The notes below the pieces were generated by a model. It did not search any database, was not told the origin of the DNA, and saw only the letters and a list, made by a program, of their open reading frames with translations. From Lyngbya confervoides BDU141951 (GTDB taxonomy: Bacteria; Cyanobacteriota; Cyanobacteriia; Thermosynechococcales; Thermosynechococcaceae), in contig NZ_JTHE03000022.1 of the NCBI RefSeq assembly GCF_000817775.3, positions 1-64,000 on the forward strand: a stretch of DNA of 64,000 nt, read 5' to 3'. The stretch's first letter is position 1; each line of letters starts with the position of its first letter. Of the stretch, positions 3,427-7,507 are shown piece by piece. The position numbers and the translations under genes were made by a program.

Positions 3427-4189
3427 TCAGGTACAGAGAGAGATTCCTGGGGTCGCCCCAAAGATTGCCTGCTTCAACCGGTGACCGCTAGGCTGAGGAA
3501 CCCCAGTCCCCGCCCCATCCCCTCCACAAGCATTTTCTATTTGCCGTTGCCCACGGCTACAGATCACTTACGCTACTGCAACATCCCTCGGCTTAGTTGA
3601 GCCACAACTAGGGCACTGATGCACTCTCACGCTCAAGTCTTTTTTTGACTGCGGCACCACAATCAAGACAGTCCTGACTCGTCCCTCTTGGGTCAACCTT
3701 GCCGTAATACACCTCTCGCTTGAAGCACACCCCAGGCAGGATTTGATGGATGAACTGCCCTAATCCTGCATCCAACGGATGCTGACCCAGCATCCCTTTG
3801 GCCATAATCCGGAAGTCCAAGTCTTCCCCGGAAATCATCCCTGCACCGTCGCAGAGGTGATGCGCCAGCTTGAAATGCCAGTCTTTTCGAGTATCGGCAA
3901 TGCGTTGATGGACTCTCCCAATCTTCTTATGGAGCTTCAGCCAGTTTGCAGGGAAGTTAGCCTTGGCCGCAGTCAACCGCTTTGCCTGAACGTGGTAATT
4001 CGGGAAGGGCGCATCTGCTGGCAAGATAAACGCTTGCTGAATCGAACAAGCATTCACGGGTAACTTGCGAGAATTTAGCCAGTCTTTGCGCTGCGGGAGC
4101 GCAAAGTTCCAGACATTGCGGCACAGATCCAGAATGTGCTCAATCTCTGAAATCTGCTCGGCAGTCGGCTCTAACTTGAATTCCCAGGT
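3427..4189 (-). pseudogene. tnpB: decayed IS200/IS605-type tnpB (RNA-guided nuclease ancestor)
   Basis: The open part (3608-4189) has a TnpB N-terminal helix-turn-helix (EFKLEPTAEQ...), a RuvC-II-like GEDLDF region and the start of the zinc finger (CLDCGA). It is about 200 aa against roughly 400 in intact TnpB: the middle, including the RuvC-I Asp segment, is deleted. At the A7 run near 3640 one extra base shifts the frame. Skipping it restores KKDLSVRVHQCPSCG, completing the zinc finger, and RDVAVA (RuvC-III). A nonsense TAA follows at once, after which a typical TnpB tail reads on to a TGA at 3427-3429. There are thus three independent lesions. No tnpA is adjacent. Confidence 0.88.
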
Positions 4190-4259
4190 CATATTTAGCG
4201 TATCTACGCCATACAACAAAACTGTATAGATTTCTCCCTGTGGTCGCGCTCCGCTACAC

Positions 4260-5314: not shown

Positions 5315-6187
5315 ATGGCAAGCTGGACCCTAAGACGGTGGCAATCAATTGCAGGGATGATGGTGCTGCTGCTGAGTTTAAGCAGCGTAATGGGATGCCA
5401 ATTGCGGGACTCTCACAGCACGCATCTGAGTTTAGGCAATCCCACCCATGCCCAGCCCAGGGCCAGCAGGACAGACAATTATCTTCAGATTAAGCCTCAG
5501 TACGCCCTCGCCTACAGCCAGAAACTGGGGCGCGCCCGCTGGGTCAGTTGGCAACTCAATCAAACCTGGCTGGGGGAGGTGGATCGGCAAAATGACTTTC
5601 GGCCCGATCCCGGCCTTCCCCCGGACTGGCCGCCGATCTTTCCCAGTGATTACCGACGAACAGGGTACGACCGTGGTCATTGGGTGCCTTCCAGCGATCG
5701 CACTCGGACCGTTGAGGACAACTCATCCACCTTTTTGATGACAAATATCATGCCCCAGGCCCCCGATAATAACCAAGGTCCCTGGGTAGAACTAGAAAAA
5801 GACTGTCGCACCTGGGTACAATCCGGTCAGTCCCTGTATATTCTCGCAGGGGGATACGGCGAGCGTCCGGCGGTGGCTGGGGGCAAGCTGGTGCCGCCAG
5901 CCCGTCTATGGAAAGTCATTGTTCGGGTCAATAGTCTGGACGGCAAGCAGCCGGTCACCCCGCGTCAGATTGATTCCCAAACCACCCTCATTGCCGTAGA
6001 CATGCCCAATGCGCAAGGCATCCGCGATCGCCCCTGGCAAGACTATCAGGTCACGGTTGATCAAATTGAGGCTGCAACCGGCCTCAACCTGCTCTCTCGC
6101 ATCCCCACCAAACTCCAGAAGAATCTAGAGCGCCAGCGATTTCCAATCCTTAAACCAAAATCTGCACCGGAGCCGATCATTCCCTAG
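5315..6187 (+). CDS. nucA: DNA/RNA non-specific endonuclease, NucA type
   Basis: A secreted sugar-non-specific nuclease. An N-terminal hydrophobic segment ends in a lipobox-like VMGC (Cys28), so export or lipid anchoring is likely. The beta-beta-alpha-metal motif DRGH is at residues 119-122 with the catalytic His122, followed by PSSDRT and the NIMPQAPDNN metal-binding segment. The region around residues 118-260 follows Anabaena NucA closely, as I recall that sequence. Length (290 aa) is close to NucA. It converges on a NuiA-type inhibitor and the two genes share a CTAG at their stops. Confidence 0.9.
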   Translation: MASWTLRRWQSIAGMMVLLLSLSSVMGCQLRDSHSTHLSLGNPTHAQPRASRTDNYLQIKPQYALAYSQKLGRARWVSWQLNQTWLGEVDRQNDFRPDPGLPPDWPPIFPSDYRRTGYDRGHWVPSSDRTRTVEDNSSTFLMTNIMPQAPDNNQGPWVELEKDCRTWVQSGQSLYILAGGYGERPAVAGGKLVPPARLWKVIVRVNSLDGKQPVTPRQIDSQTTLIAVDMPNAQGIRDRPWQDYQVTVDQIEAATGLNLLSRIPTKLQKNLERQRFPILKPKSAPEPIIP

Positions 6188-6588
6188 GTCTCGATAGCTT
6201 GCGTTCGGAGTCCCATCCAGGTTCCCGTTGGCGATCGCCCCACAATATACACATCTAGCTGCCTGTCCCCAATCCGATAGACCTTGACGGAATCCAAGAC
6301 TTGCAACAGGAGCTTGTAGAGCTGCTCATAGCGCTGCAGGACCTGGCCCTCTGCCTGCCGATGCCAGGGTTTAGGCACCAGCACCGGGGCAAAAAAATCC
6401 GCCAGGGAGATCACCTGCATCGGAGTCATGGGGGCATATCCCATCTGCTGCCTCAGACTTTGAGCCTCAAAGGGCTGAACTCCATCCCAGACCCATACCT
6501 CAAAGGGAGCATCGGTTTCGCTCATCCACCACAAATCCTCGACCGCGGCTCGCAATTTTGCCAGTCGCGCTTCATCCTCGGACACCAT
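6184..6588 (-). CDS. nuiA: nuclease A inhibitor (NuiA-like)
   Basis: This 134-aa cytosolic protein matches Anabaena NuiA (135 aa) along its length: MSE near the N-terminus with Glu at residue 24, PFEVWVWDG, RIGDRQLDVYIVG, and a C-terminal ...ET. From the NucA-NuiA structure, as I recall it, the C-terminal Thr and Glu24 bind the metal bridging the two proteins; both are present here. The ATG at 6588 is set by a perfect AAGGAGG seven bases upstream, so the longer reading to 6756 is rejected. It should protect the cell from the nuclease encoded opposite. It lies 76 bases after the hydrolase gene on the same strand. Confidence 0.9.
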   Translation of the reverse strand: MVSEDEARLAKLRAAVEDLWWMSETDAPFEVWVWDGVQPFEAQSLRQQMGYAPMTPMQVISLADFFAPVLVPKPWHRQAEGQVLQRYEQLYKLLLQVLDSVKVYRIGDRQLDVYIVGRSPTGTWMGLRTQAIET

Positions 6589-6664: not shown

Positions 6665-7507
6665 TCAAACCTCCGGCGGCACTTCCACAGCCAAATCCTC
6701 CGAAAAAACAGCTCGATCACAGTCCGCCAGTAAAATCTCTGCAATGACGGCTGCATGGGTTTGAATCAGATCATGGCCAGCCTTGGGCAGCAGGTGATAC
6801 TTCGCCTTGGCAATACCGGCCGCAAAGGTTTGACAGTGCCAAAGGGGAATCACCTTATCTTCCCCCCCGGCAATCACCAGAGCCGGAACCTGGATGTGGT
6901 GCAGATCCTTTTCCAGGGTGTCAATGGCATCTTCAGGTCGAAGGCGATCGCACAGGAAAGATCGCGCCACCGGCTGTTCTGTCAGAGCCGTTCTCACCTT
7001 CAGCAACATTTCCACCGTTGCGGCCTGTCCCAACCAGCGCCCCACCGGAGCAATGGCTCGTAATCCCCAATCCACCCAGGGCGATTGCCAGAGCAGCGGA
7101 CGCATATAGCGATAACGTCCCACAAATTCATCATCTCGAATTCCAGCAGGAGCAATGAGCGTCAAGTGAGCAATATCCTTCATGTGCAGGGCACAGGCCG
7201 CCGCCGTCCAACCCCCATAGGAATGCCCCACCACAGAATAGTGAGACAATCCAAGGGCCTGGACAAAGGCACGAATAAAATCAACCTGATGCCAAACGGT
7301 GTACTTTAAACTGGGTTTCGAAGACTGGCCAAACCCCAACAGATCCGGCGCAAAACAGTGGAATTGATCCCCCAGCAACCCCGCCAAAGCCTCCCAGTTT
7401 TGACCACTGCCGAAAAACCCGTGGAGGAGCAACAGCGGTTGCCCCCGCCCCCATTCTCGATAATGCACCTGATAGGGATTGAGATGGAGAACTTGTGTAG
7501 ACATCAT
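6665..7507 (-). CDS. alpha/beta hydrolase
   Basis: The 280-aa protein has the oxyanion loop HGFFGSGQNW (about residue 30), nucleophile elbow GHSYGG (about residue 95), an Asp in GGEDKVIP and a late His in KAGHD, so the catalytic triad is complete. The substrate is unknown. Cyanobacteria carry several such paralogues, and a second one lies at 13727-14647. It starts 22 bases after the MscS gene on the same strand and may be co-transcribed with it and nuiA. The start is one of two adjacent ATGs at 7507/7504. Confidence 0.85.
   Translation of the reverse strand: MMSTQVLHLNPYQVHYREWGRGQPLLLLHGFFGSGQNWEALAGLLGDQFHCFAPDLLGFGQSSKPSLKYTVWHQVDFIRAFVQALGLSHYSVVGHSYGGWTAAACALHMKDIAHLTLIAPAGIRDDEFVGRYRYMRPLLWQSPWVDWGLRAIAPVGRWLGQAATVEMLLKVRTALTEQPVARSFLCDRLRPEDAIDTLEKDLHHIQVPALVIAGGEDKVIPLWHCQTFAAGIAKAKYHLLPKAGHDLIQTHAAVIAEILLADCDRAVFSEDLAVEVPPEV

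Follow-up and report, generated by a model that had tools for sequence, protein, structure and literature searches.

The window, a 64,000-nucleotide stretch of DNA from Lyngbya confervoides BDU141951, carries a gene for a NucA-type nuclease and a gene for a NuiA-type inhibitor, placed tail to tail (Table 1). An earlier note on this DNA had described convergent, overlapping nuclease and inhibitor genes at 5315-6588, and the open reading frames were indeed recovered at those positions. The identical 4-bp stop overlap is found in three other pairs (L015, L017 and L090). The start of nuiA at 6588 is favored over an upstream in-frame ATG at 6756, because an AGGAGG precedes the ATG at 6588 on the minus strand. 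Being convergent, the two genes do not form one operon, the arrangement that defines a type II toxin-antitoxin pair, and the tail-to-tail layout implies separate promoters and therefore independent expression. A scan for promoters and terminators gave results at chance level. By a whole-genome family search, the 4.85 Mb genome contains one NuiA and one Endonuclease_NS gene, and these adjoin; given a single member per family, the probability of immediate adjacency by chance is of the order of 4e-4. At 3608-4219 of the window, a minus-strand ORF resembles, by eye only, part of a TnpB-type transposon protein.

Table 1. Features of the nucA-nuiA locus, in window positions
Feature	Position	Strand	Description
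nucA-type gene	5315-6187	+	290 aa; DNA/RNA non-specific endonuclease with export signal (sequence pattern); PF01223
Predicted lipoprotein signal peptide, MASWTLRRWQSIAGMMVLLLSLSSVMG followed by C28	5315-5398	+	Hydrophobic stretch, then lipobox LSSVMG-C28 (sequence pattern)
DRGH active-site motif, residues 119-122, general-base His122	5669-5680	+	Aligned to Anabaena NucA
Asn153 to Glu161	5771-5797	+	Both invariant in 100/100 aligned NucA
CTAG	6184-6187	both	Each strand reads its own TAG stop; 4-bp tail-to-tail overlap
nuiA-type gene	6184-6588	-	134 aa; nuclease A inhibitor family; PF07924
NuiA Thr134 codon, final residue (Anabaena Thr135)	6187-6189	-	Aligned to C-terminal Thr
NuiA Glu24 codon	6517-6519	-	Invariant in 48/48 linked NuiA and 18/18 in alignment A1

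The family assignments made in the earlier note are borne out for both proteins. The nuclease matches Pfam PF01223 Endonuclease_NS (E 3.1e-48, 164.8 bits against a cut-off of 23), and a phmmer search of the PDB places Anabaena NucA (1zm8/2o3b_A) closest, with an E of 4.8e-67 over residues 29-273. The inhibitor matches Pfam PF07924 NuiA (E 1.8e-35, 122.5 bits against a cut-off of 22.1), and in the PDB it matches Anabaena NuiA 2o3b_B (E 1.1e-23; 2o3b_B/1j57 at about 1e-23). The two closest solved structures, 2o3b_A and 2o3b_B, are the partners of one complex.

The active-site residues of the nuclease are kept. D119-H122, N153 and E161 are present, which together make up the DRGH motif, the Asn and the downstream Glu by which NucA membership is judged, and the motif with its His122 lies as first read. 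These residues keep a constant offset of 2 from Asp121, His124, Asn155 and Glu163 of Anabaena NucA; Asn153 is the counterpart of the metal ligand Asn155 of Anabaena, and Glu161 that of Anabaena Glu163. In an alignment of 100 NucA, 48 of them linked and 52 others, the D, G and H of the motif never vary, and Arg120 is kept in 90% of the linked enzymes and in all of the others. Where the window has DRGH, the PDB chains of Anabaena NucA have ARGH, as in an inactivated D121A mutant. Residues specific to paired enzymes were sought, and only loosely differing columns were found between paired and solo sets, which differ in phylum.

Because the hydrophobic N-terminus ends in a lipobox, the window NucA is probably a membrane-anchored lipoprotein rather than a freely secreted enzyme. 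By a simple pattern, its linked relatives have two types of N-terminus, lipobox or plain signal, and about 20 of the 49 linked enzymes have the lipobox type, among them that of Trichormus ATCC 29413 (L041). No export signal or signal peptide was found in the sequence of the window NuiA.

The earlier note had also claimed that the inhibitor keeps Glu24 and the C-terminal Thr, a claim that would fall if alignment failed to place them. The outcome favors the note at the level of both sequence and fold: Glu24 of the window NuiA falls on Glu24 of the Anabaena protein, and Thr134 on its C-terminal Thr135. In the structure of the Anabaena complex these residues reportedly bridge the NucA metal. The window NuiA was modeled with AlphaFold2 from 18 sequences (pLDDT 90.3); the best PDB match of the model is 2o3b_B (TM 0.92, E 2.1e-15), and the second is 1j57. 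In 48 of 48 linked NuiA from several phyla the chain ends exactly in Glu-Thr with zero extension, against a background of 8% for Thr; a further linked frame without the terminal Thr, that of Rufibacter (L122), is excluded from the 48. Only five columns are fully invariant in these 48 pairs, namely Leu19, Glu24, Gly117, Glu133 and Thr134. A fixed chain end is as required if the terminal carboxylate or hydroxyl acts at the metal. The site of NuiA on NucA overlaps the DNA-binding site (PMC5758888). A scan of viral contigs found no relatives of NuiA.

Proteins of ~295-420 aa that carry two NuiA-like stretches each, and that end in WT or WA, are encoded at L029, L030, L031 and L130. In three of the genomes with such proteins (G306, G091 and G074) no Endonuclease_NS match was found, and in the fourth (G396) no NucA match was found. 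Since they end in WT or WA, not ET, the two-stretch proteins may not be inhibitors of NucA.

The suggestion that the pair can be inherited as a linked unit is supported by a survey of 386 cyanobacterial genomes, which also covers the search for nucA-nuiA adjacency that the earlier note had proposed. NuiA-type proteins are found in 34 of these and Endonuclease_NS in 40, with both in 27 against 3.5 expected (Fisher p 2e-25, uncorrected for relatedness). The two genes are usually neighbors. The phylum sample holds 23 nuiA genes that are full-length and single-domain; an intact nucA converges on 16 of them within 700 bp, a broken nucA on two (G336 L014 and G193 L020), and the remaining five are unlinked. 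Of the 22 full-length nuiA genes on plasmids, 21 lie next to a convergent nucA, which is truncated in one case. Whether the Anabaena genes are linked, which the earlier note could not say, is settled by the literature, where a "known nucA-nuiA neutral site" is named for PCC 7120 (PMC11844001). Cases of unlinked nuiA and nucA (G024, G070, G296, G233 and G051) would fit functionally unrelated neighbors that converge by chance, but the linkage in the phylum sample, on plasmids and in other phyla, together with the single copies in the genome, already refutes this explanation, and its probability is negligible.

All 40 of the linked cyanobacterial pairs that were read out are convergent. Across 44 convergent pairs the median distance between stops is 58 bp, with a 4-bp overlap in four pairs and a 27-bp overlap in one. 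Outside cyanobacteria, pairs occur in Bacteroidota (convergent in Pontibacter, tandem in P. pamirensis and Rufibacter) and in an Acidobacteriota bin (tandem). The tandem pairs (L062, L082, L083 and L122) all lie outside cyanobacteria, and their existence means that convergence is dispensable for pairing; the adjacency of nucA and nuiA outlasts changes of orientation. The linked loci across phyla were selected via NucA similarity, in a NucA alignment scan, and are a non-random sample. Near many nucA genes no inhibitor could be detected, and thus an inhibitor is not always required.

Several loci have other layouts. On a plasmid of Tolypothrix sp. PCC 7910 (L174:1552-4265), nuiA lies between an upstream Endonuclease_NS gene in tandem with it and a second, convergent one, and an S1/P1 nuclease adjoins the three-gene set. 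On pUHCC0039a of Nodularia (L175:3417-5333), the nucA that faces nuiA is apparently cut at its 5' end by an ORF annotated as a reverse transcriptase, and its match is limited to residues 57-274. Open frames of 6833-10437 aa on G070:C97, G070:C83 and G191:C2 contain Endonuclease_NS, and no NuiA match was found on the same contigs.

Tree distances of NucA and NuiA are correlated, with r of 0.71 for 48 pairs and 0.80 for the 40 cyanobacterial pairs. Both values lie above all of 2000 permutations, the best of which reached 0.40 for the cyanobacterial pairs. The correlated trees fit co-inheritance, but they would also be expected to arise from shared species history. In the family of the window, single-domain nuiA is present in seven genomes and is linked to nucA in three: that of the window, G388, where the pair is intact, and G394, where both genes are broken. 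The pair is patchy and non-syntenic across this family. An empty insertion site was sought in the family via the flanking genes, and a clean site was not found; the TPM gene that flanks the window pair is universal in the family and is never beside nucA in the other genomes.

Such a distribution would suit a selfish toxin-antidote module, in which loss of the pair is punished as NucA outlives NuiA, such that plasmids or islands are stabilized. Many pairs are carried on plasmids of 40-880 kb, one adjoins a ParD/ParE pair in plasmid A of T. variabilis, and nuiA is intact beside broken nucA at L014 and L020, as would be antidote-like. The reverse is also seen, however, in that nucA is intact beside a broken nuiA at L027 and beside a partial nuiA on the plasmid of Nostoc ATCC 53789. 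In type II toxin-antitoxin systems the toxin is not kept without its antitoxin, whereas L027 and the many nucA genes without a nearby nuiA keep the nuclease. The toxin of such a system also acts in the cell that makes it, and the export signal of NucA, a sequence pattern only, speaks against this; the nucA-nuiA region of Anabaena serves as a neutral integration site (PMC11844001). A selfish module is therefore improbable. The description of the pair as toxin-antidote-like holds for its biochemistry, but not for its genetics, in which either gene decays alone.

It is still less probable that NucA is an interbacterial weapon that attacks neighboring cells, with NuiA as kin immunity. NucA-type domains are known in polymorphic toxins as Tox-NucA (PMC3482391), very large cyanobacterial ORFs carry an Endonuclease_NS domain, and the pair crosses phyla. 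The window NucA, though, is small and has a plain (lipo)signal without a delivery or repeat domain, and the immunity proteins listed for Tox-NucA are Imm36, SUKH and NTF2, with NuiA unmentioned in PMC3482391. A bolder and unlikely proposal is that NucA-NuiA is a cassette that moves as a unit within and between phyla (cyanobacteria, Bacteroidota and Acidobacteriota), and that plasmids and genomes keep it for a role in conflict, as kin immunity or plasmid stabilization, rather than for nutrition. The inhibitor's precise ending in Thr would then be a fixed key to the metal of the nuclease.

Very probably, the window pair instead consists of a nuclease that is exported or lipid-anchored and a safety inhibitor that stays in the cytosol, the two being inherited together. 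The families, the NuiA fold, the active-site and bridge residues, the linkage and the pattern of the export signal are observed; from these we infer that NuiA binds and inhibits NucA, where in the cell the two proteins act and what purpose the pair serves. NucA would be exported through the inner membrane, and probably anchored there as a lipoprotein, to act as a metal-dependent His-Me finger enzyme that degrades extracytoplasmic DNA and RNA, most likely in nutrient salvage or in the clearing of foreign or released nucleic acid. Any NucA that is mis-sorted or has folded ahead of export would be bound at its active site by cytosolic NuiA, which would block this site by bringing Glu24 and its free C-terminal residue, Thr134, to the catalytic metal and would thereby protect the DNA and RNA of the cell itself. 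Selection for both genes would maintain their adjacency and joint movement. The NucA of Anabaena is a secreted enzyme that NuiA inhibits, and expression of nucA inside Synechocystis is lethal (PMC4890671, PMC8924478).

The pair is a fresh example of the known NucA-NuiA system of Anabaena. What is modestly new is that the linkage is broad, spans phyla and does not depend on orientation, and that the inhibitor invariably ends in Glu-Thr. Few positions of the inhibitor are fully fixed across phyla; that these include the metal-bridge residues, down to the last of the chain, lends evolutionary support to the structural mechanism. Solo nucA genes, orphan nuiA genes and the nuiA between two nucA genes are natural cases in which to ask what makes an inhibitor in the cytosol necessary when the nuclease is exported.

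Compared with NucA (All7362) and NuiA of Anabaena (Nostoc) sp. PCC 7120 (PDB 2o3b), the window pair shares both families, the catalytic and bridge residues, the gene linkage, the NuiA fold and the predicted export signal. It differs in that the window genes overlap, in that NucA has a C-terminal tail at about residues 274-290, and in that the pair lies on a contig of a genome whose family includes small genomes of 2.4-2.8 Mb. In the fold match the window NuiA shows 31% identity to 2o3b_B, and the window NucA is roughly 40-50% identical to its linked relatives. Barnase and barstar are likewise a secreted nuclease and a cytosolic inhibitor, but their folds are unrelated to those of the window pair and barnase is an RNase only. 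In Bacillus subtilis, a His-Me finger nuclease, NucA, is also encoded beside its inhibitor, Nin (ComJ), although neither partner is meaningfully similar in sequence to its window counterpart and the fold of Nin differs (PMC5758888). Tox-NucA polymorphic toxins belong to the same nuclease superfamily and also have a protective partner, but they are large, delivered proteins and their immunity partners come from other families (PMC3482391).
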